Of a stretch of DNA of 64,000 nt, positions 18,167 to 33,390 are shown piece after piece. The position numbers and the translations under genes are program-made. The notes under the pieces are model-generated. The model had not been told where the DNA came from and did not search any database. It was given only the letters and a program-made list of their open reading frames with translations. Source of the DNA: Dongia deserti (GTDB taxonomy: Bacteria; Pseudomonadota; Alphaproteobacteria; Dongiales; Dongiaceae); the NCBI RefSeq assembly GCF_003574735.1, contig NZ_QORW01000021.1, forward strand, positions 1 through 64,000. Direction: 5' to 3'. Numbering within the stretch: position 1 is the stretch's first letter; the number at the start of each line of letters is the position of its first letter.

Positions 18167-20062
18167 ATGGGTGAGACCTACGCCCAGATCTATCGCCGCT
18201 CGATCGAAGAGCCGGAAGGCTTCTGGGCCGAGGCCGCGACCGGGATCGACTGGACCAGGCGCTGGAGCCGCGTGCTGGACGACAGCCGCAAACCCTTCTA
18301 TCGCTGGTTTCCCGATGCCGAGCTCAATACCTGCCACAACGCGCTGGATCGCCATGCCGATGGCGGGCGCGGCGACCAGCCTGCCCTGATCTACGACAGC
18401 CCCCTGACCAGCACGGTCCGCACCTACACCTTCCGGCAGCTGCGTGACGAGATTGCGCGCTTCGCCGGCGCGCTCACGCGGCTCGGCGTCGCCAAGGGCG
18501 ACCGCGTCATCATCTACATGCCGATGGTGCCGGAGGCGGTGATCGCGATGCTCGCCACTGCCCGCATCGGCGCCATCCATTCGGTGGTGTTCGGCGGCTT
18601 CGCAGCCAAGGAGTTGGCTACCCGGATCAACGATGCCACGCCCAAAGTCATCGTCAGCGCCTCTTGCGGCATCGAGCCCGGTCGGATCATCGCCTACAAG
18701 CCGCTGCTGGACGCCGCGATCGAGATGGCGGACCACAAGCCCGACCACTGCATCATCTATCAACGCACGCAATGCCTGGCGGCCCTGACGCGGCCGCGCG
18801 ACATCGACTGGTACGAGGCGCAGATCGACGCCACGCCGCAGCCCTGCGTGCCGGTCGCCGCCACCGATCCGCTCTACATCCTCTACACCTCCGGCACGAC
18901 CGGCCAGCCCAAGGGCGTGGTACGCGACAATGGCGGTCATGCCGTCGCGCTCAAATGGACCATGTCGAACGTCTATGGCGTGAAGCCGGGCGAAGTCTAT
19001 TGGGCCGCGTCCGATGTCGGCTGGGTGGTTGGCCATTCCTACATCGTCTATGCGCCGCTGCTGCATGGCTGCACCACCGTGCTCTACGAAGGCAAGCCGG
19101 TCGGCACACCCGATGCGGGCGCCTTCTGGCGCGTGATCGCGCAGCACAAGGTCTCGGTGTTGTTCACCGCGCCCACCGCCTTCCGCGCCATCAAACGTGA
19201 CGATCCGGACGGCAAGCTGATCGGCAAATACGATCTCTCCTGCTTCCGCACCTTGTTCCTGGCCGGCGAGCGCTCGGACCCCGCGACGCTGGAATGGGCA
19301 GAGCGGCACCTGAAAGTGCCGGTGATCGATCACTGGTGGCAGACCGAGACCGGCTGGGCGATCGCCGCCAATTGCATCGGCATCGAGCAACTGCCGGTGA
19401 AGCACGGATCGCCCACCAAGGCGGTGCCGGGCTGGGATGTTCGCGTGCTGAACAACGAAGACAAAGAAGTGAAACCCGGCGATATCGGCAACATCGTCTG
19501 CAAGCTACCCATGCCGCCCGGCGTCCTGCCGACCCTGTGGCGGGCGGAGGAGCGCTTCTTCAAAAGCTATCTGGAGCGCTACCCGGGTTTCTATCTGACT
19601 GCGGATGCCGGCTATCGCGACGAGGACGACTACCTCTACATCATGGCCCGCATCGACGACATCATCAACACAGCCGGCCATCGCCTGTCGACCGGTGCCA
19701 TGGAAGAGGTGCTGGCAAGCCATCCCGATGTCGCTGAATGCGCGGTGATCGGCGTCGCCGACGATCTGAAAGGCCAGGTGCCGATCGGCTTCCTGGTGCT
19801 CAAGGCGGGATGCGAGAACCCGCAACACATGATCGTGTCGGAGGTCGTCACGCTGGTGCGCGAGCGAATCGGCCCGGTCGCCTCCTTCAAGAGCGCCGTG
19901 GTCGTCAAGCGCCTGCCCAAGACGCGCTCAGGCAAAATCCTGCGCGGCACCATGCAGAAGATCGCCGACAAGCAGGAATGGAACATGCCCGCCACGATCG
20001 ACGACCCGGCAATCCTCGACGAAATCGCAGAAGCTTTGCGCACTATCGGCTACGCGCGGTGA
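18167..20062 (+). CDS. prpE: Propionyl-CoA synthetase
   Basis: A 631-residue AMP-forming acyl-CoA ligase. It starts YAQIYRRSIEEPEGFWAEAA and carries the signature FYRWFPDAELNTCHNALDRH characteristic of PrpE rather than Acs. The P-loop A3 motif is YTSGTTGQPKGVVRDNGGH, and the acetylatable C-terminal lysine lies in RLPKTRSGKILRG. It would activate propionate (and probably acetate) to CoA thioesters in the cytosol. The start is the ATG at 18167 behind GGGAGG. It stands alone; no methylcitrate genes are nearby. Confidence 0.93.
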   Translation: MGETYAQIYRRSIEEPEGFWAEAATGIDWTRRWSRVLDDSRKPFYRWFPDAELNTCHNALDRHADGGRGDQPALIYDSPLTSTVRTYTFRQLRDEIARFAGALTRLGVAKGDRVIIYMPMVPEAVIAMLATARIGAIHSVVFGGFAAKELATRINDATPKVIVSASCGIEPGRIIAYKPLLDAAIEMADHKPDHCIIYQRTQCLAALTRPRDIDWYEAQIDATPQPCVPVAATDPLYILYTSGTTGQPKGVVRDNGGHAVALKWTMSNVYGVKPGEVYWAASDVGWVVGHSYIVYAPLLHGCTTVLYEGKPVGTPDAGAFWRVIAQHKVSVLFTAPTAFRAIKRDDPDGKLIGKYDLSCFRTLFLAGERSDPATLEWAERHLKVPVIDHWWQTETGWAIAANCIGIEQLPVKHGSPTKAVPGWDVRVLNNEDKEVKPGDIGNIVCKLPMPPGVLPTLWRAEERFFKSYLERYPGFYLTADAGYRDEDDYLYIMARIDDIINTAGHRLSTGAMEEVLASHPDVAECAVIGVADDLKGQVPIGFLVLKAGCENPQHMIVSEVVTLVRERIGPVASFKSAVVVKRLPKTRSGKILRGTMQKIADKQEWNMPATIDDPAILDEIAEALRTIGYAR

Positions 20063-20101
20063 GCGGGCTACCACATATGAGAACAGCCCTCCCCAAGAGG
20101 A

Positions 20102-20127
20102 GTCCCCTCTCCCCGCTGGGGAGGAAG
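20102..20127. repeat. Dispersed GC-rich palindromic intergenic element
   Basis: CTCCCC-GCT-GGGGAG forms a tight 6-bp stem 45 nt after prpE. It resembles the palindromes at 932, 11743 and 13917 and may act as a terminator. Confidence 0.45.
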
Positions 20128-20240
20128 AAGCGAGGCGTGCGGACGGCCATGGGTGAGCTGAGCGCAGGGTGGTTCCAACAGCCCCTAGCGATGACACAAG
20201 CTAGCGACTAACGATGACGAGGATGCACGGGAGAAATCCG

Positions 20241-20540
20241 ATGCCAGCCATGGAAGACCGCGATGTCGAGGAAATCCGCGCGCATGGCCAGCTGCCCAAC
20301 GCGGACATCGACATTATCTATCGCCGCCGCCAAGACGAGTCCGAGTTCATCGGGATCAGCATCCAGACGATGCCGTTCTCGTTCGATCGCCTGCTCGCGA
20401 TAAGCGATCCGTTCCGCTTCTGGGGCCAAGTGATGGAAGCCGCGTGGTGGCCATGGCTGCAGGGCCTGCGCGCTATGGACCGCCTTTCACATAGCCCTGC
20501 GCCTCCACGATCAAACCGTCCTCGACGCGCATCAGATTGA
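20241..20540 (+). CDS. Small hypothetical protein
   Basis: A 99-residue protein from the ATG at 20241, behind GGGAGA. Its core IGISIQTMPFSFDRLLAISDPFRFWGQVMEAAWWPWLQG has a regular pattern of aromatic residues, as seen in small orphan proteins of Rhizobiales. The C-terminal 20 residues are basic and low complexity and overlap the convergent SnoaL gene by 68 nt, which is unusual and may mean sequence drift at the end. No function can be assigned. Confidence 0.55.
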   Translation: MPAMEDRDVEEIRAHGQLPNADIDIIYRRRQDESEFIGISIQTMPFSFDRLLAISDPFRFWGQVMEAAWWPWLQGLRAMDRLSHSPAPPRSNRPRRASD

Positions 20541-20829
20541 CGCCGCGCACGGACTGTTTCTCGCCCCAGTGATAGCGCCAGCGGATGATGCCGCGATCGC
20601 CCAGCACTGTCACGTCCTCGAGCTCGAACCAGGTGCCGGGCGTGGTCGCGATCTGGCTCCACAGCGCGATGCAGGCTTCGCGTCCCTCGTGGCGCGAGCC
20701 ATCGGGCGCCGGCACGGTGTTCTCGATCGCGCAGTGATCGGCGACCAGCTCGTTCAGCACCGTCGGATCGTGCGACAGGAACACCTCGTTGAACCGCCGC
20801 AGCACCGCTTCGGTCGCGGCGCCGGTCAT
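20473..20829 (-). CDS. SnoaL-like / NTF2-fold protein
   Basis: A 118-residue protein with the NTF2/SnoaL cone fold pattern. A helix (AVLRRFNEVFLSHDPTVLNEL) comes first, then DHCAIENTVPAPDG and a set of beta strands ending LIVEAQGYV. Family members act as cyclases, isomerases or hydrolases on small polyketide-like or aromatic substrates. Its start overlaps the GST stop by ATGA, so the two are translated together and share the TetR-flanked promoter. It may detoxify the same compound as the GST. Substrate unknown. Confidence 0.85.
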   Translation of the reverse strand: MTGAATEAVLRRFNEVFLSHDPTVLNELVADHCAIENTVPAPDGSRHEGREACIALWSQIATTPGTWFELEDVTVLGDRGIIRWRYHWGEKQSVRGVNLMRVEDGLIVEAQGYVKGGP

Positions 20830-21497
20830 GAGCGCGCCGCCTGGCGTTCTGCCGTGACCATCGCGGGCGGCGCATAGAACGTGTGCTCATCGCCAAACGG
20901 CGCGAGGCCCTCGGCCGCAAGCGCGTTCTGAACAGCGGGCCGCGCGCCGACGCGATCCATGAACGCCTTCAGCGTCGGCCATCGGCCAAGGTCGATCTCC
21001 AGCCACGGCGACCAGTTGAGGATGACGAAGAAGTAGGCATCCGCGACCGTGAACGTGTCGCCCGTCAGATAAGGCCCGACCATCTCGCTCGCCACCCAGC
21101 CGAGCCGCTTCTCGACTAGTTCCAACAGCGTGCTCCTCACCGGCGCATAAGGCGGCCGGAACAGCAGCACCATCGGCTTGTGCAACTCAGAGGTCATGAA
21201 GTTGAGCCACGATTGGACGCGCGCCCGCTCGACCGTGCCCGCTTTGGGCGCCAGGCCTGCTTCCGGCTTCAGATCTGCGAGAAACTGCACGATCGCCGGC
21301 CCCTCGGTCAGCGTTGCCCCGTCCTCCAGCTCCAGCACTGGTACATAGCCGTTGCGGTTGATGCGGTGGAAGTCCTCGCCGCTGCTGGTCCGGTGCGTGT
21401 TGCGGTCGATGGCGATGAGCTCGACCGGTAGGGCCAGTTCCTTGGCGATGATGTGCGGCGACAGCGAGCAGGCGCCGGGATGCATGTAGAGCTTCAT
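20826..21497 (-). CDS. Glutathione S-transferase family protein
   Basis: A 223-residue cytosolic GST. The thioredoxin-fold N-terminus begins MKLYMHPGACSLSPHI with Cys10, which marks the bacterial beta class. The second domain has the N-capping segment GDTFTVADAYFFV. It probably conjugates glutathione to a toxic electrophile. It is first in a two-gene unit with the SnoaL protein and is divergent from a TetR repressor with a shared AT-rich dyad between them, which fits repression lifted by the toxic substrate. Confidence 0.92.
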   Translation of the reverse strand: MKLYMHPGACSLSPHIIAKELALPVELIAIDRNTHRTSSGEDFHRINRNGYVPVLELEDGATLTEGPAIVQFLADLKPEAGLAPKAGTVERARVQSWLNFMTSELHKPMVLLFRPPYAPVRSTLLELVEKRLGWVASEMVGPYLTGDTFTVADAYFFVILNWSPWLEIDLGRWPTLKAFMDRVGARPAVQNALAAEGLAPFGDEHTFYAPPAMVTAERQAARS

Positions 21498-21529
21498 GGG
21501 TGGTTCCTCCTCATCTTGCTATTTTTATA

Positions 21530-21545
21530 CTATTCCGCATAATAG
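21530..21545. promoter_or_regulatory. Candidate TetR operator
   Basis: The dyad CTATT-CCGCAT-AATAG lies in the 85-bp AT-rich gap between the divergent GST and TetR starts. It sits where it would overlap both promoters. Confidence 0.5.
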
Positions 21546-21582
21546 ATCCGCGAGTCAAGACTTTTATTCGGAACAGTACAAA

Positions 21583-22188
21583 ATGACCGAAACCCCCAGG
21601 AAGCGCGGCCGCCCGCCCGCCTATGACCCGGACAAGGCCCTGGCCAGCGCACGCGACGTGTTCTGGTCCGCCGGCTACGAAGCGAGCTCCTTGGACGAGC
21701 TGAGCGCCGCGATGGCAATGAACCGCCCCAGCGTCTATGGCGCGTTCGGCGACAAGGAAGCGCTCTATCTGAAGACGCTGGCGCGCTATCGCGACGAGAG
21801 CGTGCACGCGATGCGCGCCACGCTCGACCCCGCGAAGTCCCTGCGGGAGGGCCTCGCCACAATCTATCGCAAATCGATAGACACCTATCTCGCCGGCGGC
21901 GCCGCGCGCGGCTGCCTCCTGATCGGCACCGCGACCACGGAGGCGGTCAGCCGCGCCGCTGTGCGCGATCTCCTGCGCGGCAGCCTGCAGGCCTTTGACG
22001 CCGTCATCGAGGATCGCCTCAAGCTGGCCGGGAAACGCGGTGAGCTCGCGCCCAAAGCCGACCCGAAGGCGCTCGCCCTTATCGCCTCCGCGATCATGCA
22101 CTCGCTCGCGGTTCGCGCCCGCGCTGGCGAGCCGCGCAAAGAGCTCGAAAAACTGGCGCGCGCTGGCGTCGCACTGATCTGCGGCTGA
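21583..22188 (+). CDS. TetR/AcrR family transcriptional repressor
   Basis: A 201-residue repressor. The N-terminal segment RKRGRPPAYDPDKALASARDVFWSAGYEASSLDELSAAMAMNRPSVYGAFGDKEALY is a canonical TetR helix-turn-helix. The C-terminal domain, with CLLIGTATTEA, resembles the TetR_C_16/YerO-like ligand fold. It is divergent from the GST operon and probably represses it. The start is the ATG at 21583, after the dyad. Confidence 0.93.
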   Translation: MTETPRKRGRPPAYDPDKALASARDVFWSAGYEASSLDELSAAMAMNRPSVYGAFGDKEALYLKTLARYRDESVHAMRATLDPAKSLREGLATIYRKSIDTYLAGGAARGCLLIGTATTEAVSRAAVRDLLRGSLQAFDAVIEDRLKLAGKRGELAPKADPKALALIASAIMHSLAVRARAGEPRKELEKLARAGVALICG

Positions 22189-22308
22189 GACGCTCTCGGG
22201 GTCCGCCGATGGACGCATCACGGCGCTTGCCACTGGTGCTTGACATGTGGAGTGTCGAGGGGACACTTGGCCTTGGATAGGACCGTCCCTTCGTTGCTAG
22301 GAGGTCCA

Positions 22309-22770
22309 ATGAAGATTCTGACGGGGCTCCTCGTATTGGTGGTCTGCTGGATGTGGAGCGCTGAGAGCGCACACGCGTGTTCATGCGGCCCCATCTCCCC
22401 CGAAGCCGGCTTCGACCGCGCCCAATATGTGTTTACCGGCAAGATCGTCCAGGCACAGCATCACTTATGGCTCGTTGACGTCGAGCGCGTGTGGAAAGGC
22501 CATGAAAAGCTCACCCGCACCGTCGAGCTGATGGATGTTTACGCGCGAATGGACTGCGAGTTCTTTTTTCAGCTTGGGCAGCGCTATCTTTTCTTCGCAG
22601 TATTGGCCAAGGGCGGTCGACACGTCTTTTTTCACCCGCAAGCGTGCAACTGGACGAGACCCTTGCAGTCGACACGCGTTCCCGTCGATGGGAAAGAGTC
22701 GCTATGGATCGAGGATTTGATCGCCCGGGAGCATGGCCCGGGAGAACCGCCCCGCGACGAGCGCCCTTGA
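22309..22770 (+). CDS. Secreted TIMP/netrin-like domain protein
   Basis: A 153-residue protein with a signal peptide (residues 1-23) ending at a Cys-x-Cys (HACSCGP). The mature N-terminus CSCGPISPEAGFDRAQYVFTGKIVQ followed by WLVDVERVWKG resembles the TIMP/NTR-like OB fold, in which the first Cys forms a disulphide. Further cysteines (DCEFF, ACNW) could pair with these. It has a strong GGAGG ribosome site. It may be an extracytoplasmic binding or inhibitor protein. Partner unknown. Confidence 0.75.
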   Translation: MKILTGLLVLVVCWMWSAESAHACSCGPISPEAGFDRAQYVFTGKIVQAQHHLWLVDVERVWKGHEKLTRTVELMDVYARMDCEFFFQLGQRYLFFAVLAKGGRHVFFHPQACNWTRPLQSTRVPVDGKESLWIEDLIAREHGPGEPPRDERP

Positions 22771-22894
22771 AAGCGCATATCGCCGAAGCATGGCGCCAGA
22801 CCTGTCCGTGAAAGGCAATACAGGGACCGTTATTGTATTTGACCTGCTATCCTCGGAAGATGAGCTCAACGCGTTTGCAAGGGAGGCACTCGAT

Positions 22895-23275
22895 ATGCAT
22901 CATTCACGCTTCTGCGCCGTGCTGATAGACTGCAAGACCTCCGATGTGGACGAGGCCGCCCGCTACTGGGGTGAGGCGCTCGGGCGTTCCGTGGACCACA
23001 ATCATCCTGGCAGCCGCGGCAACTACCGCATGCTGGAGACTCCGCCGGACGAGGTCATCGTACAGATCCAGCGTGTAGACCACGAGAGCCGGGTCCACAT
23101 CGACATCGAGACAGACGACATCCCTGCTGAAGTGGCGCGCCTGGAGAAGCTCGGCGCCAAAGTGGTCGACCGTCTGGAGCGTTGGGTGGTGATGCAGGCG
23201 CCCACAGGCCAGCGTTTCTGCGTTGTACGGGTACAGCGTCCCGGTTTCCCGAAGAACGCAAACCGCTGGGATTGA
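22895..23275 (+). CDS. VOC family (glyoxalase-like) protein
   Basis: A 126-residue protein of the vicinal oxygen chelate fold. It has the beta-alpha pattern FCAVLIDCKTSDVDEAARYWGEALGRSV and the second half VHIDIETDDIPAEVARLEKLGAKVV ending in MQAPTGQRFCVV. Small size and one repeat pair match the single-domain VOC proteins that dimerise to bind a metal and a small substrate. The ATG at 22895 follows GGGAGG. Function beyond the fold is unknown. Confidence 0.85.
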   Translation: MHHSRFCAVLIDCKTSDVDEAARYWGEALGRSVDHNHPGSRGNYRMLETPPDEVIVQIQRVDHESRVHIDIETDDIPAEVARLEKLGAKVVDRLERWVVMQAPTGQRFCVVRVQRPGFPKNANRWD

Positions 23276-23493
23276 GGCCTCAGGAAGCGAAGCAGGCCTG
23301 CCGAGTGGCGGCGGCTCGATGAGCGAGCCGAACGGCCGTCGAATGATATCGCGCTTTTGGCTCGCAAGGATGCCCGCTGCGAACGGCTGATGGGCGGCTC
23401 CAGGTGATGCAGCCTTGAACTATGAACGAAGCCGTGACTCGTGCCGGTCACCAGCCCTACTCTTCAGCGGATTGGATCCGAACGGAGGGACTC

Positions 23494-23700
23494 ATGAACG
23501 AGGATGTTTTCAACATGAGCGTGCGGGGATTTCTCAAGAAAGTCGGAATCACCGCGCAGCGCGAGATGGAAAACACGGTGCGGGAGGCGCTTTCGAAAGG
23601 CAGCCTGACGGGCAAGGAGAAGCTGCCGGCCAAGGTCACGTTGACCTTGGGCCAGACCAGCCTGACTTTGGTCATCGATGGCGAGATCGAGCTCGAATAG
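23494..23700 (+). CDS. DUF6494 family small protein
   Basis: A 68-residue protein. The N-terminal MNEDVFNMSVRGFLKKVGITAQREM and the C-terminal VIDGEIELE match the DUF6494 family of Alphaproteobacteria. It has a strong CGGAGG ribosome site. It has no membrane segment. Function not known. Confidence 0.8.
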   Translation: MNEDVFNMSVRGFLKKVGITAQREMENTVREALSKGSLTGKEKLPAKVTLTLGQTSLTLVIDGEIELE

Positions 23701-23894
23701 TTTCCATTGCGGAAGGCATCAGGCCGAGGCCGCGCCGTTCGGTATGCGATAAGTCGGGCGGGCCTCCGACAGCTGACCCTCCTTACTCGCGTCAGCTCGG
23801 CAGAAATGTGCCAGGGGCGGCCTTGGCGCCAAAGCAACTCAAGGCTGAAAGGTGCCAGGACGCGTTTCGGAGGCACGGATCGGAACATCAATGG

Positions 23895-25991
23895 TCATGG
23901 GACTCCGGCCTTGCGCAGTCCCTCCATATAGATTTCGATTTGGTCGGGCCGCTTGACGTAGAATAGATGCTCCTTTGCGAAACCGATCGAGAACTCCGGC
24001 TTCACCTGGATGAGTTCCTTGAGTGCAGTCTCCGCTTGCCGCTCATCGCCGAGATGCCCCAGCGCCGAGACCAGGTGGGCGCGGGCCCAGTATTGCGCAT
24101 TGGGGGTCCGGACCGCCCGGCGCCCCCATGACGCGGCATCCTCGAACTCACTGCGGAAGATATGAGCGAGTGATCGGTAGGAGTAGAAGGCCCATCGGAA
24201 AGGATCGTGAGGGCTCAACCGGATGGCAATCTCGAACTGCTTGATTGCCTCATCGAGCCGTCCCTCATAAGCGAGCGAGTCCCCCAGTCCGCAATAGGTG
24301 ACCGCAAGGCAAGGATTGAGCTCCTGGGCGTATTGCAGCGCCTCGATCGCCTGATCGTACTCGCGGCGCGCGAGGTGCACGCGGCCGATCGTGAAGTAGC
24401 TATTTGCGTCCTGATCGTCGAGTTCGATGGCGCGCTCCGCTGCAGCCAAAGCCTCGTCCATCCGGGCCTGGTCCGGAGCTATGTCGAAATAGACCATGCT
24501 GAGGACGATCGCATAAGCCAGCCGCGAGTGCGCGCTGGCGAAGCTCGGGTCGAGCTCGATCGCTCGGCGCAGCAGCTCCTGGGATCTCAGATTGCTGTCG
24601 CGTGTGAACTTGTAGAACTCCGCCGTACCCAGCTGGTAGAGATCCCACGCGCCCAGGTTCTTGCGCGGTCGGCGCTCGGCCTTTCTCTGTTCCGTGAGGC
24701 CGAGCTCCGCCTCGAGACGCGCCGCAACCGTCTCGGAGATCTCATCCTGAAGCTCGAAAATGTCGATCGCATCGCGATCGAAGCGTTCAGACCAGACGCT
24801 CTGCTCGTTTCCGGAATCAACCAGCTGCACCGTGATGCGGAAGCGCGTGCCGGCCTTGCGAACACTCCCGGTCACAAGATAATCGGCATTCAGCTTGTCC
24901 CCGATGACTCTGATGCCCTCCTTCGAGCCACGAAAGGCGAATGCCGGGTTGCGGGCGATCACCGTGAGCCATCGGTTCTTGGACAGGGCCGTGGTGATAT
25001 CCTCCGTGATACCGTCGGCGAAATGGTCCTCGGCGGGATCGCGATTGAGATTTGCGAACGGCAAGACTGCGACGGAGGGTTTCTTGGCAAGCGCTTGCTG
25101 CATTGCCACTGCGTGTTGCTTGGCGCCTTCTACGACGGCAGTCGTCGACTGAGCGTTCTCGATTGGCGCGACGAAACGGAAGCCGCGGCCATGCACCGTT
25201 GCGATCGTATGCTGCGCGATGCCGTCGTCTCCGACCGCCTTGCGTGCGGCCTTGACCTGGCTGCTGAGCGCCGCGTCGGACACGATCCTGTTGCCCCAGA
25301 TTGCGGTAAAGATTTCGTCCTTTGTTACTGTTCGATCGCTGTTTCGCACCAGGAATACCAGCAGATCGAATACCTGGGGCTCGACAGGCACGCGTTCACC
25401 CGCCTGCCGGAGCTCGAACCGCGCGGTGTCCAGCTCGAATTCCCTGAAGCGGATGACCTCGGGGAGCGTAGCGGCCGACGTGACTTCGACGCTGTATGCC
25501 TGGATGGGTCGGCTGATGTTTTTGACGGACTGCTCGCCCAAAGCAACGAACCGAACGGGCACCCTGGTGCCGATATGGTCGTAGACTTGCTTCGAGAGCA
25601 CGATTCCACCTGGCTCCGCGATGCTTTGAAGCCGCGCCGCCACGTTCACTCCATCTCCATAGATGTCACTGTCATCAACGATAACATCGCCGAGATGGAG
25701 CCCGATGCGCAGCTGCAGCCGATGCTTCTCACCGACAGAGCTGTTGCGGGCGGCGAGTTCGCGCTGGATGTCTACCGCGCACTGCAGAGCGTCGACCACA
25801 CTGGAGAACTCTACCAGCGTACCATCGCCCATCAGCTTGACGGTGCGGCCGGAGTACCGGGTGATGGCGGGATCGGCGATACTGGAACGGGTGACCTTCA
25901 GCACATCGAGCGTCCCCGCTTCGTCGATCTCCATGAGACGGCTGTAACCAACCACGTCCATGGCGAGTATGGTCGTCAGCTTGCGCCCCAT
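23895..25991 (-). CDS. Class III cyclase fused to winged helix, TolB-like and TPR domains
   Basis: A 698-residue cytoplasmic protein. Residues about 5-170 form a class III cyclase domain with metal residues D12 and D56, Lys52 at the purine site, and N116 and R120 in VNVAARL. Residues 178-278 form an OmpR/CadC-type winged helix (DLLVFLVRNSDRTVTKDEIF, then GRGFRFVAP). Residues 305-435 form a TolB/FlgO-like region (PSVAVLPFANLN). TPR repeats (about 450-690) complete it. It could make cAMP and bind DNA in response to a TPR partner. The ATG at 25991 follows GAGAGGG. No transmembrane helix is seen. Confidence 0.9.
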   Translation of the reverse strand: MGRKLTTILAMDVVGYSRLMEIDEAGTLDVLKVTRSSIADPAITRYSGRTVKLMGDGTLVEFSSVVDALQCAVDIQRELAARNSSVGEKHRLQLRIGLHLGDVIVDDSDIYGDGVNVAARLQSIAEPGGIVLSKQVYDHIGTRVPVRFVALGEQSVKNISRPIQAYSVEVTSAATLPEVIRFREFELDTARFELRQAGERVPVEPQVFDLLVFLVRNSDRTVTKDEIFTAIWGNRIVSDAALSSQVKAARKAVGDDGIAQHTIATVHGRGFRFVAPIENAQSTTAVVEGAKQHAVAMQQALAKKPSVAVLPFANLNRDPAEDHFADGITEDITTALSKNRWLTVIARNPAFAFRGSKEGIRVIGDKLNADYLVTGSVRKAGTRFRITVQLVDSGNEQSVWSERFDRDAIDIFELQDEISETVAARLEAELGLTEQRKAERRPRKNLGAWDLYQLGTAEFYKFTRDSNLRSQELLRRAIELDPSFASAHSRLAYAIVLSMVYFDIAPDQARMDEALAAAERAIELDDQDANSYFTIGRVHLARREYDQAIEALQYAQELNPCLAVTYCGLGDSLAYEGRLDEAIKQFEIAIRLSPHDPFRWAFYSYRSLAHIFRSEFEDAASWGRRAVRTPNAQYWARAHLVSALGHLGDERQAETALKELIQVKPEFSIGFAKEHLFYVKRPDQIEIYMEGLRKAGVP

Positions 25992-26089
25992 CTGCCCTCT
26001 CCCGCTGCCCGATACCGGCTTTCCGTCGACCTTGGCGAATATGATTATACCATGTCGGCTCAAGGATCGTTGAACGAGGGATGCGGGCC

Positions 26090-27079
26090 TCAGGCATCGC
26101 CGTAGCCATCGAACAGAACCGTGGACAGATAGCGCTCCGCACAATCTGGCAAAACAGTCACAACGGTTCGTCCCTTCATATCTTCCCGCTTGGCGATCCG
26201 CAGGGCGCAGGCGAGGGCGGCGCCCGACGAGATGCCTGCAGGAATGCCATCGAGCAGAGCCAGCCTGCGGGCCGTATCGATTGCCTCTTCATTGCTGACC
26301 AGCAGGACTTCGTCGATGAGTGTCGTGTCGAGAACGTCCGGCACGAACCCCGCGCCGATACCCTGAATCATATGGGGGGAATGGGTGCCGCCAGAAAGCA
26401 CCGGACTTTTTTCCGGTTCGACCGCGATGATCCGAACCTCAGGCCTGCGCGCCTTCAGCACCTCGCCGACGCCCGTAAGCGTCCCGCCCGTGCCAACGCC
26501 GAGAACCACCGCATCGATAACGCCATTGGTGTCGCGCCAGATCTCCTCGGCTGTGGTGCGTCGATGAATTTCCGGATTCGCGGGATGCCCGAATTGCCAG
26601 GGCATCACCGCCTTCTCGGTCTGAGCGATGATTTCCTTTGCCTTCTCAATCGCGCCGCCGATCCCTCTCTCGCGCGGTGTAAGGACCAGCTCGGCGCCGA
26701 GAAACCTGATCAGTTTCCGGCGCTCGATCGAGAAGCTGTCCGGCATGGTCAGAATGCACCGATAGCCCTTGGCGGCGCATGCAAAGGCAAGGCCGATCCC
26801 GGTGTTTCCCGAGGTGGGCTCGACAATGACGCTGCCGGATCCGATGGTGCCATCAGCTTCCATGGCCTCCAGCATGGAAACGGCGATCCGATCTTTGACG
26901 CTGGCGATTGGATTGAAGAATTCGAGCTTGGCGAGTACCTCGGCCTGGCATCCGGCTTCCTGCGCCATCCGGCCTATGCGCACTAGCGGTGTGTTCCCGA
27001 TCGTCTCCAGGATGGTGTCGTACACCCGGCCCCTTCCCGGTCTGTCCAGGACCAGCTTCGCGCTGAGTTGATCATTCAT
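26090..27079 (-). CDS. cysK: Cysteine synthase A family PLP enzyme
   Basis: A 329-residue fold-type II PLP enzyme. Lys62 in FFNPIASVKDRIAVSM forms the Schiff base; EPTSGNTGIGLA and GVGTGGTLTGVG bind phosphate. The family makes cysteine from O-acetylserine and sulphide in the cytosol. The N-terminus carries about 15 more residues than typical CysK. Its ATG overlaps the upstream methyltransferase stop by ATGA, which marks a translationally coupled pair. An O-phosphoserine or cystathionine synthase role cannot be excluded. Confidence 0.9.
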   Translation of the reverse strand: MNDQLSAKLVLDRPGRGRVYDTILETIGNTPLVRIGRMAQEAGCQAEVLAKLEFFNPIASVKDRIAVSMLEAMEADGTIGSGSVIVEPTSGNTGIGLAFACAAKGYRCILTMPDSFSIERRKLIRFLGAELVLTPRERGIGGAIEKAKEIIAQTEKAVMPWQFGHPANPEIHRRTTAEEIWRDTNGVIDAVVLGVGTGGTLTGVGEVLKARRPEVRIIAVEPEKSPVLSGGTHSPHMIQGIGAGFVPDVLDTTLIDEVLLVSNEEAIDTARRLALLDGIPAGISSGAALACALRIAKREDMKGRTVVTVLPDCAERYLSTVLFDGYGDA

Positions 27080-27981
27080 TGGGTATCTCCTTGCAGGTCG
27101 AGTTGAATAGCGCTGATCACCCACGACGAACTGTCCATGACAATTCCATCAGCGCCGATTTTTTGGCGGTTGATCGCTTCGGCGAGCGCGGCCTCGATCT
27201 GTGCGCGTTTCTGCTCCGCGAGTGGACCTGCTTCCCGGAACACCTCTCCAGCCGGACCGATCGCGAGTTGAAAGGCGATGGCGTCCTCGACGTCCCGGCC
27301 GATCAGGACCGGCGCGTCGACCCGGCGGAACTCGATTTGCCCGTATCCGGCCGCCGTCATCATGGCCCGCACCGTCGCTTCGTCCGACATCGAGAACGGA
27401 CCTGGGCCGCAGGTCTGCGCATCCGGACCAGGTGGCGGCAGGAACCGAAGCACGATGTCCTTAGCCATCGAGAGCCAGGGATTGTCCGCACGATCGCGCC
27501 AGACGATGTGGACCATTCGTCCGCCTGGCCGCAGCGCCTTACGCATGTTGCGCAGACCCGCGACAGGGTTGGCAAAGAACATCGTACCGAAGCGCGCGAA
27601 AACGAGATCGAACTGTTCCGTCGGCAGCGCAACTTCGGCATCGCCGCGCACGAAACGCAGATTGCCGATCCCTTGGGCCTGTGCGTCCCTGCGCGCATAG
27701 TCGAGGAACGCATCGCAGCAATCGATCCCAACCACCTCGCCTGTCGGACCAACACGCCGTGCAAGCTTGATGGCGGTATCGCCGAAGCCGCAACCTACGT
27801 CGAGAACCCGATCCCCTTCGCGAACCGGGAGTGTTGGAAAGATCGCGTCGCTATGGTGGGTCAGTCCGTCGACCAGAATGTGCTTAAAGCGGATGAATTT
27901 GTGCGCGAGCACCTCGTTCCAGAACTGGACAAAGGGCGAGTCTTCCACCGGCGCTTCGGTGGGGTTTGCAAAGCTGCTCAT
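27076..27981 (-). CDS. Class I SAM-dependent methyltransferase
   Basis: A 301-residue UbiE/Methyltransf_25-type enzyme. Motif I is VLDVGCGFGDTAIKLA, with VVGIDCCDAFLDYARR as motif post-I. The C-terminal extension (DVEDAIAFQLAIGPAG) is typical of small-molecule methyltransferases. It is first in a two-gene unit with cysK, coupled by ATGA. The pairing suggests methylation linked to sulphur or amino-acid metabolism, but no substrate can be named. Confidence 0.87.
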   Translation of the reverse strand: MSSFANPTEAPVEDSPFVQFWNEVLAHKFIRFKHILVDGLTHHSDAIFPTLPVREGDRVLDVGCGFGDTAIKLARRVGPTGEVVGIDCCDAFLDYARRDAQAQGIGNLRFVRGDAEVALPTEQFDLVFARFGTMFFANPVAGLRNMRKALRPGGRMVHIVWRDRADNPWLSMAKDIVLRFLPPPGPDAQTCGPGPFSMSDEATVRAMMTAAGYGQIEFRRVDAPVLIGRDVEDAIAFQLAIGPAGEVFREAGPLAEQKRAQIEAALAEAINRQKIGADGIVMDSSSWVISAIQLDLQGDTQ

Positions 27982-28386
27982 CGTGCGGGCACCTCATCGT
28001 CGTCTCTCGCTAATCGAGAACGGCTGAAAGGTATCGGTCCTCACCGTCCCTCGCTTGGCAATTTCCTGAGGAAATCCTGGATTTCTCATGAGGAGGCGGC
28101 GGAATTCAGGTTGCGCCCATTTCCACCTACGGCTGCGGCTGCCGAGGTGGCTTTCACGGCCGCCCCGCATGCCCCACGGGTATGAAGGAAACCTACGACG
28201 ACCTGGTCGAGCCGAGCAGCTAAACTACTGATAAGCTTACGCTATCCATCCTTATGGCCTGGCCTCAACACTCATAATGTGTTGGCTTTTCTTGCCTCGG
28301 GGCAGGCAGGTGCCATAAACGGAAGTGCCGGTGTCACATCGGGGATCGTTCGGGATTCCAACCACCTGAACGCCGCCGAGTCGTCG
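27982..28386. other. Intergenic stretch with one small hairpin
   Basis: About 405 bp between the epimerase-like stop and the methyltransferase start, both minus strand. The only clear structure is CAACAC-TCATAAT-GTGTTG at 28266-28284, followed by TTTTCTTG on the plus strand. I see no credible gene; the promoter of the methyltransferase-cysK unit should lie here. Confidence 0.4.
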
Positions 28387-29388
28387 TTAGACCAATGCAC
28401 GCCCGTCCCCGGCAACGCCACGGACGCATCCTGTGGGCTTGAAAACATGCAGTCGGATTACCGTTTCGATCGGTATACCTCGCCTCAGCGTCAGCAATCG
28501 CGCGCCGCGGCGGCGCGCCTCGGCTAAGCCGTAAGCCAGCGGCGTGCTGTTGGGCTCAAGCCCGATCAGCCGCGTGCATCCACCCCATGGGGGCTCGGAG
28601 GTACCAGCGATCTCGAGCCAAAGCCAAGCCGTTGGAAATAGCTCGACATCCCATGACAAAGCGACCGCAACAGCATTGTCTAGCCGCCGGATTGACATCC
28701 ACGCCGCGGCGAAGTCCTCCAGATACGCGAGACAGGCCAGTCGGCCCTCGGCAACAGCCGTAAGTGGCCGTCGAAGATCGATGATGCCGTTTTTGCCCCG
28801 GATGCTTGGCCAGCGCCCGACGGCTCCGGCTCGCAGCGGATTGGCGGGCGGATCATATCCCTCGTCCGATCTTACGCGCCGGGCACCACTGTCGAGCTCG
28901 AACTCGCCTGTCAACAGATCGGAGCCAAAAGTCGGGTGATGGCCCCACATGACTGTCACGGGCTCGTTGCCTTCTGATTCTGCTGTCTCCCGGATCGTGA
29001 CCAGATCTCCCTCGACCAGGATTTCCCGCTGCATGCGGACCGGCACGCTCGTGAACTGACGGCTGAGACGCATCCTTGAGACGCCTGGTTCCATTTCCCA
29101 GGGCGAGATCGATGCTTCGCCATGAAAGCCATGAAACACACCGTTGAAGGTGCAGGCATCGCCGCCATTCGGAAACAGGAGCGGCCAGCCCCCAGTGTAG
29201 CGGGTCAGCCAGGTGTGCTCGTCGGGTGCCGCTCCTGAGTCGAGCGGTTCATTCATCGGCTCCCACGGGACAGTACCCAGCACGGACAAGCCGAGCTGCT
29301 TGTGCTCGATTGCGGTAATGGTGGCACCGACTTGCGGCCTGACGGTGACGCGAAGAAATTCACTTTCCAGGAGGACATCGCCGCTCAT
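28387..29388 (-). CDS. Aldose 1-epimerase-like protein
   Basis: A 333-residue protein with the galactose-mutarotase beta-sandwich pattern. It begins with LRVTVRPQVGATITAIEH, then GGWPLLFPNGG, the conserved His of FHGFHGEAS, and later MWGHHPTFG and LEPNSTP. These His residues match catalytic positions of the family, so it may interconvert anomers of the imported sugar. It is last in the CUT1 operon, overlapping the permease stop by ATGA. Confidence 0.85.
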   Translation of the reverse strand: MSGDVLLESEFLRVTVRPQVGATITAIEHKQLGLSVLGTVPWEPMNEPLDSGAAPDEHTWLTRYTGGWPLLFPNGGDACTFNGVFHGFHGEASISPWEMEPGVSRMRLSRQFTSVPVRMQREILVEGDLVTIRETAESEGNEPVTVMWGHHPTFGSDLLTGEFELDSGARRVRSDEGYDPPANPLRAGAVGRWPSIRGKNGIIDLRRPLTAVAEGRLACLAYLEDFAAAWMSIRRLDNAVAVALSWDVELFPTAWLWLEIAGTSEPPWGGCTRLIGLEPNSTPLAYGLAEARRRGARLLTLRRGIPIETVIRLHVFKPTGCVRGVAGDGRALV

Positions 29389-30242
29389 TTAACGGAACCC
29401 GCCATCAGGCCCTGGATGTAGTGCTTCTGGAACGCGAGATAGAGAATGATCATAGGCGCGCTGGCGAACACCATGCCGGCCATGGTGAGAGGGATCTGGT
29501 CATTGTAGCGGCCCTGAAACACGCTGATACCGGCCATGAGCGTCCGCTTGGCGTCGTCCTGCAGGAAGATGATGGCGATCAGCAGGTCGTTCCAGACATA
29601 GAGCGCGTTCACCACCACCAGCGTGAGCAGGGCCGGCAAGGACAGCGGGATCACGATCTTGATCAGGATCAGCAGGTCGCCGGCACCATCGATGCGTGCT
29701 GCCTCGAACAATTCGCGCGGCAGTGTCCGGAAGAAGCTGGTGAGCAGATAGACGGAGAATGGCGTGATCAAGCCTGCATAGATCAGGATCGCGCCTTCAT
29801 AGGTGCTGATCAGGGACAATTGAGTATAGAGCACGAACAAGGGGACGATCATCACCACCGGTGGGATGGCCATGAGCGAGGTGCTGATCGAGAACAGCAA
29901 GCCGCGACCGCGGAACTGCATACGGGCGATCGCATAGGCTCCCAGGCAGGACACGACCGTGCTCAGCGCTACAGCGCCGGCCGCGAGAATCACGCTGTTG
30001 GCCATCCAGGCGACGAAATCGCTCTCGAAGAGAACGCTGCGGAAGTGGTCGAGGACCAGCTCCTGGGGAAACCCGACCTTGTTGAAGATGTATTCCTGCT
30101 GACTCTTGAGGGAGGTCAGGATCATGAACAAAGTCGGCGTGAGCGCGATCAGGGTGGCGACGATGAGGATGCCGTGCTTGAGCACCTGGTCGGGCTTGAC
30201 CCGCACCCCATGTTGCCGTTTGACCGCCATCCCGCCCCTCAT
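29385..30242 (-). CDS. Carbohydrate ABC transporter permease (MalG/UgpE-like)
   Basis: A 285-residue permease with six transmembrane helices. The EAA loop EAARIDGAGDLLILIKIVIPLSLP docks to the ATPase, and the C-terminus FQKHYIQGLMAGSVK is diagnostic of CUT1 inner-membrane subunits. The ATG at 30242 overlaps the MalF-like stop by ATGA. The frame upstream of this start is open to 30545 but overlaps the MalF gene and is non-coding. No cognate ATPase gene lies in this operon. Confidence 0.94.
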   Translation of the reverse strand: MRGGMAVKRQHGVRVKPDQVLKHGILIVATLIALTPTLFMILTSLKSQQEYIFNKVGFPQELVLDHFRSVLFESDFVAWMANSVILAAGAVALSTVVSCLGAYAIARMQFRGRGLLFSISTSLMAIPPVVMIVPLFVLYTQLSLISTYEGAILIYAGLITPFSVYLLTSFFRTLPRELFEAARIDGAGDLLILIKIVIPLSLPALLTLVVVNALYVWNDLLIAIIFLQDDAKRTLMAGISVFQGRYNDQIPLTMAGMVFASAPMIILYLAFQKHYIQGLMAGSVK

Positions 30243-31120
30243 GCCGTCTCTTCCTCGTTGGCGCGCCGCCGGGCCGCGAACAGCGGCACGATCAAAAGGA
30301 GCGAGACCAGGAAGAGCATGACGGAAACCGCCGACGCGATTCCCGGCAGGCTGGTCCTGATCAGCGCGTTGAAGATGTAGAGCTCGACCACCATGGTCGA
30401 CGTGCCCGGGCCACCACGACCGCCACCGATCATGTACACGTACGCGAATACGGCGGAGAGAATCGTAATGATGCTGGTCACGATGTAGAACTCCATGACC
30501 ACTTTCATCTGCGGCAAGATGACGTGCCACACGCGCTGCCACCAATTGGCGCCTTCGAGCCGCGCCGCCTCCATCAGCGATTCATCCAGGCTCAGCATGC
30601 GCGCGAGAAACAGGATGATGCCGAGCGCGGATTCGCGCCAGATGATCAGCATCATGACCGTCCACAGCGCGACATCCGACGACCCGATCCAGTCCAGAGC
30701 CAGGAAATCGAGTCCGATCCAGCGCAGCACCTCATTCACCGGGCCATTGAACTGGAATAGCTTCTTCATAATCACGGCGATGATCGGGATCGCCAGGATG
30801 TAGGGCAGGAACAGCACCACGCGATAGAGCTTCCAGCCCTTCAGCCGCTCGTACAGCACCACGGCGATCAACAGCGACCAGACCACCATGAAAGGAACGG
30901 CTAACAGCAGCAGTAAATTGTGCTGGACCGACTCCCAGAACAGCGGCTGATTGAGCACAAGCTCGTAGTTGCGCAAGCCGATCCATGGCCCATCGATCCC
31001 GCGGACCATCTTGAAGCTGAACTCGAATATGCGGATCAGCGGATAGCCGAACACGAACAGCAGAAGCGCAACCAGCGGAGCGACGTAAAGATAGGGCGCA
31101 AACCTGGATGTCTGGTTCAC
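30239..31120 (-). CDS. Carbohydrate ABC transporter permease (MalF/UgpA-like)
   Basis: A 293-residue permease with six transmembrane segments and the EAA loop EAARLEGANWWQRVWHVILPQMK. It forms the heterodimeric channel with the MalG-like subunit. It starts with GTG at 31120 in a GC-rich stretch. It follows the binding-protein gene by 100 nt and precedes the MalG-like gene with overlap. Confidence 0.94.
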   Translation of the reverse strand: MNQTSRFAPYLYVAPLVALLLFVFGYPLIRIFEFSFKMVRGIDGPWIGLRNYELVLNQPLFWESVQHNLLLLLAVPFMVVWSLLIAVVLYERLKGWKLYRVVLFLPYILAIPIIAVIMKKLFQFNGPVNEVLRWIGLDFLALDWIGSSDVALWTVMMLIIWRESALGIILFLARMLSLDESLMEAARLEGANWWQRVWHVILPQMKVVMEFYIVTSIITILSAVFAYVYMIGGGRGGPGTSTMVVELYIFNALIRTSLPGIASAVSVMLFLVSLLLIVPLFAARRRANEEETA

Positions 31121-31220
31121 CGCCGGAGCCCCGCCTTCATTCGCACGTCATGGCAAGAGATTGCCGATGAAGCGGGAGGCCGGCCAAACACGGCCGGACC
31201 CCCCTCCCCCGCAACTCGCG

Positions 31221-32561
31221 TCAGCCGCCGAGATCGACGGCCCACTTCTGGTAGTTCTCGACGATGTCGGGGTTGAAGTCGCGCCATTCCTTGGCGACGT
31301 TGTAGGCAAGCTCGCCAGCCTGCTCTCCCGTGATCTTGCCTTCGACCACCTGCTGAGCGGTCGGCAGCAATGCCTGTTCGTAGAACTGCCCGGGCACCAG
31401 GTTGGAAAGATACGGAATGTTTGGCGACAGGCCCCACCGCTGCCACATGTCGCGCACCGTCGGATCCGTGAGCACCGAAACGTCGAAGTTCTTGTTGGCG
31501 GGGATCCAGCCGGTCAGCTCGTGCAGCGCCTTCAGGCGATCCGGCGACTGCAGATACTCAAGGAACGCCGCGGCCGCCTTTGGATCTTTCGCTTTCGCCG
31601 GGATGCCGAGCCCCTGTGAATCGAAGATCGGCTGGCCCGCGAGCTTGCCCTTGCCATAGACGGGCATCACCATCGTTCCGATCCGACCGTTGGTCGCCTT
31701 GCTGTCCGCCGGCACACGTGAGCCGACCGAGAGCCCCATTCCCACCTTGCCCGCGACGATCAGGTCGATGCCGGGATAGAGCTCGGTCGACGATATTTCC
31801 GGATTGAAGAAGCCGGCCTTCCTGAGCTCTTCGAGCTTCACCCAATGCTCATGGTATTTTGGTTCGCGGAAGTCGCGCTCACCGGTGAACAGGCCGATTG
31901 TCTCGCCAGCGGAGTCAACATTCTGCGCTAGGGCATGGCCGAAATACCACTCGCCCCAGTAGCCGTCCTGGATGCCGCCGCCGACAGGGGCGATGCTTGC
32001 GGATTTCAGCTTCTCGCAGGCCGCCAGGAACTCATCCCAGGTCTGCGGCGCCTTGTCGGCGTCCAGCCCCGCCTTGTCGAAGGCATCCTTGTTGTAGATC
32101 CAGATCATCGGCAGTGGATACCAGCCAACGCGATAGGTGTTGCCGCCGAAATTGCTGAGCAGCGTCGGGTTCGAGGCCTGGATCACCTCGTCACTCACAA
32201 GGCCGTTCAGCGGCTGAAGGTAGCCGAGCCACACGCTCTCCATATGGTAGATGCCGTTCCACAGGAACTGGATATCCGGCGCCTCGCCGGACGCGGCCGC
32301 CGTCTGGAACTGCGAGATCACCACGGCGGTGTCTTGCAGCATCGGCTTCACCGTTGCCGCCGTGTATTTCTTCACCGAATCATCGACGAAGGCCTGCAGG
32401 CCCGGCAGTTCCTGCTCGCCCCACCACCACATGTTCAGCTCAGTCGCCGCACGCGCGCGCCACGCCGGCAGCATCCCCCCAAGCGCCACGCCGGCACCGG
32501 CGGCCGCGGATGTCCTCAAGAGCTCTCGCCGTGAGAAACTTTGCCTCCATTTCCCTGTCAT
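31221..32561 (-). CDS. CUT1 extracellular sugar-binding protein
   Basis: A 446-residue periplasmic binding protein. A Tat-type signal (FSRRELLRTSAAAGAGVALGG, with the RR pair at residues 11-12) leads to mature ATELNMWWWGEQELPG. The body has the family-1 SBP layout and LDFKWIYNKDAF-like elements; PLPMIWIYNKDAFDKAGLD is seen near residue 155. It would deliver a mono- or oligosaccharide or a sugar derivative to the downstream permeases. Tat export suggests that it folds in the cytoplasm first. Confidence 0.93.
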   Translation of the reverse strand: MTGKWRQSFSRRELLRTSAAAGAGVALGGMLPAWRARAATELNMWWWGEQELPGLQAFVDDSVKKYTAATVKPMLQDTAVVISQFQTAAASGEAPDIQFLWNGIYHMESVWLGYLQPLNGLVSDEVIQASNPTLLSNFGGNTYRVGWYPLPMIWIYNKDAFDKAGLDADKAPQTWDEFLAACEKLKSASIAPVGGGIQDGYWGEWYFGHALAQNVDSAGETIGLFTGERDFREPKYHEHWVKLEELRKAGFFNPEISSTELYPGIDLIVAGKVGMGLSVGSRVPADSKATNGRIGTMVMPVYGKGKLAGQPIFDSQGLGIPAKAKDPKAAAAFLEYLQSPDRLKALHELTGWIPANKNFDVSVLTDPTVRDMWQRWGLSPNIPYLSNLVPGQFYEQALLPTAQQVVEGKITGEQAGELAYNVAKEWRDFNPDIVENYQKWAVDLGG

Positions 32562-32613
32562 TGCGCTTCCCTAGCCTCCTTATGTGCTTCCGGCGCGCAA
32601 GCGTCCGGTAATT

Positions 32614-33390
32614 TCAGAACGTGCTCATGAGGCCGCCGTCGACGACCAGCAGCTGGCCCGTCATGTAACGGCAGTAGTTCGACGCCAGAAAGATCACGGT
32701 ACCCGAGACGTCTTCCGGATAGCCGGTCCGGCGCAGCGGGATCTTGCCCTTCTTCACGTACCATTCGAGGAACTCGGGCGTCTCCGTCTCGTTGACGCCG
32801 TTGATGATCGACATCGGCGTCGACATGAAACCGGGCGCCACCGCGTTCACCAGGATGTTGTAGGGCCCAAGCTCCACCGCCATCGACTTGGTCAGCGTGA
32901 TGATGCCCCCCTTGGCCGCGTTGTAGGCGCCGACCTCGCCGCTCGAGGCGAAGCCCTGGATCGAGGCGATGTGAATGATGCGGCCGGATTTCCGCTCGAC
33001 CATATGCGGCGCGACGAGCTTGGAGCCCATGTAGACGGATTCGAGATTGATGGCGATGGTGCGCCGCCAGTCTTCCAGCGTGTCCTGCAGGATCGTCCTG
33101 GCCGGCGGATTAATGGCTGCGTTGTTCACCAGCACGTCGATCCGGCCGAACTCCCTGACGATGCTGTCGACCACCGATCCGTACGCACCGTAATCCGTGA
33201 CATCCAGGTCGAAAGATCTGGAGATGCCGCCGGCAGCCGAGACCTCAGCTTCGACGGTGTGGAGCGTTGCCGGATTCCGCTCGAGCAGCATGACCTTGGC
33301 GCCTTCGGCGGCCATCTCGAGCGAGACGGAACGGCCGAGCCCCTGTCCGGCACCCGTGACAATGCATACCTGGCCCGCGAGCAAGCCCAT
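32614..33390 (-). CDS. Short-chain dehydrogenase/reductase
   Basis: A 258-residue NAD(P)-dependent SDR. It has TGAGQGLG (cofactor), NNAA, and the catalytic Ser of HIASIQG with YNAAK, and ends in DGGLMSTF. The C-terminal substrate region has PMSIINGVNETETPEFLEWYVKKGKIPLRR, a pattern shared with the SDR at 62.0 kb, so the two are probable paralogs. It is first in the CUT1 operon and probably oxidises the imported sugar or polyol. The ATG at 33390 is preferred because the frame upstream contains the IclR-type operator. Confidence 0.92.
   Translation of the reverse strand: MGLLAGQVCIVTGAGQGLGRSVSLEMAAEGAKVMLLERNPATLHTVEAEVSAAGGISRSFDLDVTDYGAYGSVVDSIVREFGRIDVLVNNAAINPPARTILQDTLEDWRRTIAINLESVYMGSKLVAPHMVERKSGRIIHIASIQGFASSGEVGAYNAAKGGIITLTKSMAVELGPYNILVNAVAPGFMSTPMSIINGVNETETPEFLEWYVKKGKIPLRRTGYPEDVSGTVIFLASNYCRYMTGQLLVVDGGLMSTF

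Follow-up and report, generated by a model that had tools for sequence, protein, structure and literature searches.

A putative two-output regulator with a class III cyclase and an OmpR-type winged helix beside a methyltransferase-cysK operon in Dongia deserti

The window analysed here, a stretch of 64,000 nucleotides from Dongia deserti, carries a regulator gene next to a probable two-gene operon and a predicted DNA site:

23895..25991, minus strand: fusion regulator of 698 aa, comprising a class III cyclase, a winged helix (wHTH), a TolB_N-like domain and TPRs
25497..25973, minus strand: class III nucleotidyl cyclase domain, residues 7-165 (Pfam PF00211, six residues, 3mr7)
25173..25400, minus strand: OmpR/PhoB/CadC-type winged helix, residues 198-273 (Pfam PF00486, 5ju7, PhoB chains)
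24801..25088, minus strand: TolB_N/FlgO-like domain, residues 302-397 (sub-cut-off in Pfam, mixed alpha/beta in the structural model)
24108..24473, minus strand: TPR repeats, residues 507-628 in Pfam (several TPR models)
26090..27124, minus strand: cysteine synthase gene cysK (above the NCBIfam cysK cut-off)
27076..27981, minus strand: SAM-dependent class I methyltransferase gene (MT), first gene of the probable operon
28052..28095, minus strand: predicted operator, a 44-bp array of 11-bp direct repeats (sequence comparison across loci)

The regulator gene opens with an ATG at 25991 and runs without internal stops to a stop codon ending at 23895. An initial annotation had read it as a cyclase followed by a wHTH and then TPRs, and this order is borne out by Pfam: Guanylate_cyc matches residues 7-165 (47.7 bits, cut-off 21.9, 1.8e-12), Trans_reg_C matches residues 198-273 (52.3 bits, cut-off 26.2, 5.9e-14) and several TPR models exceed their curated cut-offs, with the best stretches between residues 507 and 628. 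Beyond the domains listed in that annotation we found a TolB_N-like match over residues 302-397, which at 18.8 bits lies below the Pfam cut-off of 22.4, together with the MT-cysK operon and the predicted operator array. The solved cyclase chain closest to the fusion's cyclase domain is 3mr7 of Silicibacter pomeroyi (E 6e-41), a 189-residue chain that consists of the cyclase domain only. The wHTH matches the CadC chain 5ju7 (E 1e-9) and PhoB chains including 1gxp.

An AlphaFold2 model of the single chain, built on a 48-row alignment, had a mean pLDDT of 90 and a pTM of 0.49. The helices of its TPR part run from about residue 446 to 695, and pLDDT fell below 50 solely in the linker between wHTH and TolB_N-like domain (residues 280-302). 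The domains thus appear well formed in the model while their mutual arrangement is uncertain. A fold search ranked 3mr7 first (46% identity, rmsd 1.7), and 3mr7, 1ybu and 4wp8 matched the cyclase fold at TM-scores of 0.88-0.92 of target; the 50 fold matches listed were cyclase domains and two TPR proteins, with no wHTH chain among them. A Kyte-Doolittle scan of the 698 residues found no hydrophobic segment of membrane-helix length, the highest 19-residue mean being 1.18, and this fits the earlier description of the protein as soluble. CadC/ToxR membrane regulators carry a transmembrane segment after the wHTH and a periplasmic sensor. The designation CadC-type therefore holds for the winged-helix domain and not for a membrane regulator.

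The residues D12, K52, D56, N116 and R120, listed as catalytic in the initial annotation, are all present, and D109 completes the adenylate-type set. We take D12 and D56 to be the two metal aspartates, K52 and D109 the substrate lysine and aspartate, and N116 and R120 the transition-state pair. All six are invariant in the 8/8 distinct fusion orthologues. Among cyclase-only relatives, 47/69 retain all six and 22/69 have at least one lost, changed or gapped, so residue loss is common in the family; at the relatives' rate, the chance of 8/8 is about 0.05 (0.68^8), which makes the invariance modest evidence. K52 and D109, the most variable of the six among relatives, are kept in 8/8 fusions. Conservation extends to the DNA-binding half: 41% of cyclase and 40% of wHTH alignment columns are invariant in the fusions, whose recognition helix and wing hardly vary, whereas no position is invariant across linker columns 169-178 and 279-298. 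Judged from sequence conservation, the cyclase domain is probably functional as an adenylate cyclase, though its invariant residues could serve ATP binding alone.

How widespread is this architecture? Nine fusion ORFs, including one exact duplicate (L117 = L033; L denotes loci and G genomes), gave eight distinct proteins, and the seven orthologues beyond the window's share its domain order at 63-92% pairwise identity. These orthologues and the confident AlphaFold2 model argue that the fusion is not a chance product. The window's genome contains 54 matches to parts of the protein, and among 30 loci taken from it the window gene alone combines cyclase and wHTH. Full-length matches occurred in 1/17 genomes of the window's family (all those searched of its order), in 2/18 and 1/2 genomes of the orders of two carriers, in 3/385 genomes of a class draw that includes the genome itself, and in 1/398 genomes of a phylum draw, this one being the genome itself; in both draws the best 2-3 candidates per genome were scored. 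Across 116 loci we counted 75 cyclase-TolB-TPR, 24 wHTH-TolB-TPR, 18 TolB-TPR, 8 double and 17 other architectures, these counts being rows rather than genes, because loci overlap, and called by comparison with the window's domains. Most collected relatives thus carry either a cyclase or a wHTH on a TolB-TPR chassis, and the fusion is, in these surveys, a conserved but rare combination.

The 8 fusions fell into one group in a tree built from 77 cyclase domains (100/100, with a bootstrap that had not settled), as they did in a rapidly built tree with 112 TolB-TPR parts (96, SH-aLRT support only). The nearest relatives of their TolB-TPR part are the wHTH-only regulators L036 and L037 (support 100). 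Mapped on the same tree, the N-terminal type (cyclase, wHTH, both or neither) changed at least 24 times, compared with 41 times when labels were shuffled. The simplest reading of these trees is that a cyclase was added onto a wHTH-TolB-TPR regulator, although the cyclase may instead have been lost in L036 and L037. That these nearest relatives, encoded near the same MT, presumably work without a cyclase would suit a different view of the domain, namely that it no longer makes a messenger in vivo and serves the wHTH as a module for ATP sensing or dimerisation. The altered residues in 22/69 cyclase-only relatives point the same way, whereas the retention of all six in 8/8 fusions, the variable K52 and D109 included, speaks modestly against it (chance about 0.05), and we consider such a loss of enzyme function unlikely.

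In the window the probable start codon of cysK, an ATG at 27079, overlaps the MT stop codon as ATGA. In 8/8 distinct fusion loci cysK adjoins the fusion gene or lies one small gene away, and MT adjoins cysK in 7/8. The order MT-cysK-regulator is tandem in the window, L031, L032, L033 and L124; L123 has a tandem cysK-regulator pair, and its 11-kb stretch shows no MT; the MT-cysK pair of L034 and L035 is convergent to the regulator gene, giving 6 tandem and 2 convergent arrangements in all. A DUF302 gene separates cysK and fusion gene in L032 (3267-3770) and L033 (3350-3841), and no intervening gene was seen in the other fusion loci. When window positions 20001-31000 were compared with seven fusion loci (5-10 kb each), counterparts could be recognised for MT, cysK and the fusion, apart from frames that lie antisense to these genes or in another frame inside them; there were none in these loci for the GST, TetR, glyoxalase or DUF6494 genes or for the ABC importer. 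The DUF6494 protein (23422-23700) is encoded on the opposite strand, beyond the 3' end of the fusion gene. Between 23500 and 28500, sigma-70 promoter and terminator matches were no more frequent than in shuffled sequence, and no promoter was recognised. Since a second cysK above the cut-off lies elsewhere in the genome, the copy in the window need not be the housekeeping one.

We then scored neighbours at 80 loci, counting an MT above 300 bits or a cysK-like PLP enzyme above 150 bits. Such neighbours were present at 5/5 fusion, 4/14 wHTH-only (MT at L036 and L037, PLP enzyme at L038 and L039), 1/53 cyclase-only (L040) and 0/8 loci with neither domain, and all of these loci fall in one 16-row branch of the TolB-TPR tree (support 92). 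Elsewhere in this branch, L118 has a cysK-like gene in its longer stretch, L145; L144, the stretch of L116, and L041 have none. Stretches in which relatives of this branch stand near other PLP enzymes of cysteine-synthase fold are L038:465-3453, L039:17-3214, L040:1641-2732 and L145:1567-3144; the enzyme in L038 is fused to glutaredoxin and adjoins a PLP decarboxylase, and that in L040 is near a DUF1326 gene. The PLP enzyme neighbours hint at a sulfur or thiol signal.

The MT itself was present at E 1e-60 in 8/385 genomes of a class draw. Besides the window's genome and G138 there are six carriers, and in two of them a TolB-TPR regulator directly adjoins the MT: a wHTH-only regulator in G169 (L140, divergent) and a cyclase-only regulator in G242 (L141, tandem). 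One MT family is thereby found beside cyclase-only (L141:1452-4247), wHTH-only (L140:3161-5820; L037:2855-5548) and double-output (window 23895-27981) regulators. We read the MT neighbourhoods across genomes as an exchange of regulator output at one target. Elsewhere, at L142:6534-9623, the MT family occurs near an ECF sigma factor and a methyltransferase-MerC protein.

A Gibbs search of the sequence in front of MT at 6 fusion loci (L035 was left out as a near-copy of L034, and L123 has no MT) returned a 30-bp motif with an information of 149.7, compared with 110.6 ± 2.5 and a maximum of 116.8 for 40 shuffled sets given the same 15 restarts; 12 dinucleotide shuffles, run with 8 restarts against 15 for the real set, gave 110.5 ± 2.4. 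Extending the motif to 44 bp, the similarity between columns over 9 sites peaked at shifts of 11, 22 and 33, a period exceeding that of 2000/2000 column permutations. An inverted-repeat reading was rejected, its best value of 4.52 falling below the 95th percentile of 5.02. In the window, 70 bp separate the end of the array from the MT start codon; measured from the site to the conserved FWN codon of MT, the distance is always 154-181 bases. The longest mechanical MT frame overruns the site in L033 and L124, where we took the conserved start to be downstream.

Does this site accompany the regulator? With leave-one-out matrices, which keep the scores of L036, L037 and L140 from being inflated by their own sites, and ranked over the whole locus stretch on both strands (20001-33000 for the window), the array was the best site of its locus in 7/7 fusion loci with an MT (18.5-38.8 bits) and at 3/3 MTs with a wHTH-only regulator: L036 (10.7 bits, a weak site, with MT and regulator about 0.9 kb apart), L037 (17.2 bits) and L140 (15.5 bits). 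On the MT strand, no site was present at 6/6 MTs without a wHTH regulator. At the L141 MT, which adjoins the cyclase-only regulator, the best MT-strand match ranked 127; at the MTs of L138, L139, L142 (twice) and L143, where no TolB-TPR regulator lies in the stretch seen, the best reached 6.3 bits with ranks from 3 to 106. The contrast of 10/10 with 0/6 is significant (Fisher 1.2e-4), although the MTs bearing the site are partly close relatives of one another. Relatedness alone does not explain the pattern, because the MTs of L138 and L139 are closer to the window's (71% and 66% identity, no site in this orientation) than that of L140, which has the site (63%). L123, outside the matrix and without an MT, has a 35.0-bit site before cysK, the next best in the locus scoring 12.4. 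When the 6.1-Mb genome was scanned with a 42-base pattern allowing 3 mismatches, the site in the window was the single match, though weaker sites may occur elsewhere.

There is one exception. A scan of the other strand at the six MTs without a wHTH regulator revealed a reversed array of CCCCACA-type repeats upstream of the L139 MT, scoring 11.5 bits with the 6-site matrix or 19.8 with the 9-site matrix. It consists of CCCCACAGAAA-like repeats (L139:5912-5955) and stands in an 11-kb stretch in which no TolB-TPR regulator was seen. Counted as a site, it changes the contrast to 10/10 against 1/6 (p ~0.0014, by hand).

A comparison of the regions upstream of other regulators took non-duplicate genes with at least 250 bases upstream, leaving aside fusions, training loci and regulators with neither domain. 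In this set 6/21 wHTH-only genes outscored all 67 cyclase-only genes (Fisher 1e-4; the threshold was set post hoc, after the data were inspected), and 5/21 did so with a matrix of fusion sites alone (5e-4). In a rank test of the two groups, p was 0.008 for the 9-site matrix and 0.02 when the 6 fusion sites alone made up the matrix. The other 15/21 wHTH-only regulators had no site above the cyclase-only level. Regulators with the site mostly share an SDAALSS-like recognition helix, and several of those without it have STLTSH; L039, L067 and one gene of L003 fit this pattern poorly. Arrays of 11-bp direct repeats lie upstream of further wHTH-TolB-TPR regulators at L003/L005 and L006 (both in the window's genome), L038, L051, L052 and L118. 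Control of, or by, neighbours through 11-bp repeat sites may be common among wHTH-TolB-TPR proteins. The separately transcribed regulator genes of L034 and L035 have nothing like the site in their 300-base upstream regions, which argues that autoregulation is not general.

The conserved site could nonetheless be a promoter or the target of another regulator. In that case the array would belong to a different transcription factor or to the core promoter, and the fusion's wHTH would be a structural spacer. The 15/21 regulators without a site above the cyclase-only level and the reversed L139 array suit this account, and the sites themselves are known from conservation alone. Against it, the array in MT orientation tracks the wHTH regulator (10/10 against 0/6 MT genes), the site precedes cysK where MT is missing (L123), and site-bearing regulators mostly have SDAALSS-like helices in place of STLTSH, the three misfits apart. 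We regard a foreign operator or core promoter as quite improbable. Given the link of the site to wHTH regulators, its 11-bp step and its location in front of the operon, local control through the wHTH is the reading we favour. The initial proposal of a likely active cyclase and a DNA-binding domain in one soluble protein is thus supported by residue and domain conservation, and its DNA-binding side gains from a predicted operator that follows the wHTH and not the cyclase, with L139, in the other orientation, as the one exception.

Alternatively, the protein might be an ordinary soluble adenylate cyclase that feeds a global cAMP pool read by CRP-type regulators, with a vestigial wHTH. The genome does encode many cyclase-TolB-TPR proteins, and 7 of its proteins match a Crp-type HTH model above the cut-off, a model that also covers Fnr types. 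However, the wHTH is conserved like the cyclase (40% against 41% invariant columns, with a near-invariant helix and wing) and has operator evidence of its own, and this possibility strikes us as very remote. The MT upstream region of the window had no match to two exact CRP/Clr consensus patterns. Any cAMP produced may act on the spot or by way of a CRP-type protein, or may have no such role.

What is the mechanism of this regulator? OmpR/PhoB regulators dimerise through an N-terminal receiver, while their C-terminal wHTHs sit head to tail on direct repeats. Class III cyclases are dimers with their active sites at the interface, and the catalytic site forms solely in the dimer. Lying N-terminal of the wHTH and joined to it by a short linker (residues ~169-178), the fusion's cyclase could stand in for the receiver. 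On balance we favour a soluble, local, two-output regulator, in which (i) the wHTH would bind the array at 28052-28095 and control the MT-cysK operon, probably by activation, given the 70 bp between the end of the array and the start codon; (ii) the cyclase, probably an adenylate cyclase, would take the place of the OmpR/PhoB receiver as dimeriser, so that dimerisation would turn on both outputs, cAMP synthesis and DNA binding, at once; and (iii) the TolB_N-TPR part would be the likely sensor or partner-binding part. A step of 11 bp is also described, in an excerpt of a report on PhoP of Mycobacterium tuberculosis, for 7-bp motifs with 4-bp spacers (PMC4832192). More tentatively, we can picture a DNA-bound adenylate cyclase that has replaced the OmpR/PhoB receiver, so that one sensing event would lead both to tandem-repeat binding at the MT-cysK promoter and to local cAMP; the TolB_N-TPR part would then be a common sensor whose outputs (DNA binding, cAMP or both) have been swapped many times, even at one target gene.

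Proteins joining a class III cyclase to an HTH are already known. The excerpts available to us of work on mycobacteria describe such fusions, the CHD+LuxR proteins Rv0386, Rv1358 and Rv2488c (PMC3466318, PMC3938503), which like the Dongia protein hold a class III cyclase and an HTH in one chain; by the same excerpts their HTH is of the LuxR type (PMC3466318), and Rv0386 also has an AAA-ATPase (PMC3938503). The fusion described here differs in its OmpR-type wHTH directly after the cyclase, its TolB_N-TPR part, its alphaproteobacterial hosts and its predicted operator, and neither a LuxR-type HTH nor an AAA-ATPase was among the 19 Pfam families matched at E 0.1. In Sinorhizobium meliloti an adenylate cyclase is likewise physically coupled to transcription factors, CyaC being in complex with CycR and Clr; according to the part of the source consulted, these are three proteins and CyaC is membrane-bound (PMC10463352), whereas the fusion is one chain without a membrane segment. 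A Pycsar defence cyclase was considered and appears unlikely: the PycC match was weak (26.9 bits, over the general cyclase fold), the recognised neighbours are metabolic, and no Pycsar-type effector was recognised among the neighbours examined.

Closer comparisons are found within the TolB-TPR family. Cyclase-TolB_N-TPR proteins of proteobacteria, with many paralogues in the window's genome, share residues 1-170 and 300-698 with the fusion but lack the wHTH, and 0/67 of their upstream regions reach the score attained by 6/21 wHTH-only genes. Their genes also occur as tandem pairs (L049, L050, L056, L100). The wHTH-TolB_N-TPR regulators share residues ~180-698, the proximity to the same MT and the same DNA site, and lack the cyclase; we consider them more informative relatives than CadC. 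HilA/EilA has a similar wHTH-TolB_N-TPR layout, and the NCBIfam HilA/EilA model aligns over residues 196-623 (E 7e-21), although at 74.2 bits the fusion does not reach the family cut-off of 589. In the window's genome, a short cyclase-TolB_N frame without TPRs (L014:1339-2472; C2, ~215-216 kb) lies divergent from two wHTH-TolB-TPR genes, an arrangement in which the two halves of the fusion are neighbours.

In the open-licence literature, judged by titles and the beginnings of abstracts, we recognised no description of a cyclase-wHTH-TolB-TPR protein or of its target, and a limited search found no input or target assigned to soluble cyclase-TolB-TPR proteins. What is new here, relative to the known cyclase-HTH fusions, is the link to MT-cysK and the repeat-array site. 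Soluble cyclase-TolB-TPR proteins are numerous in proteobacteria, and one group of them can now be assigned a predicted target operon, together with a specific candidate DNA site, open to simple binding assays. Moreover, one MT family whose nearby regulator is of the DNA-binding-only, cyclase-only or double-output type provides a natural comparison set, in which cAMP and direct DNA binding as outputs of the same sensor would be directly testable against each other.
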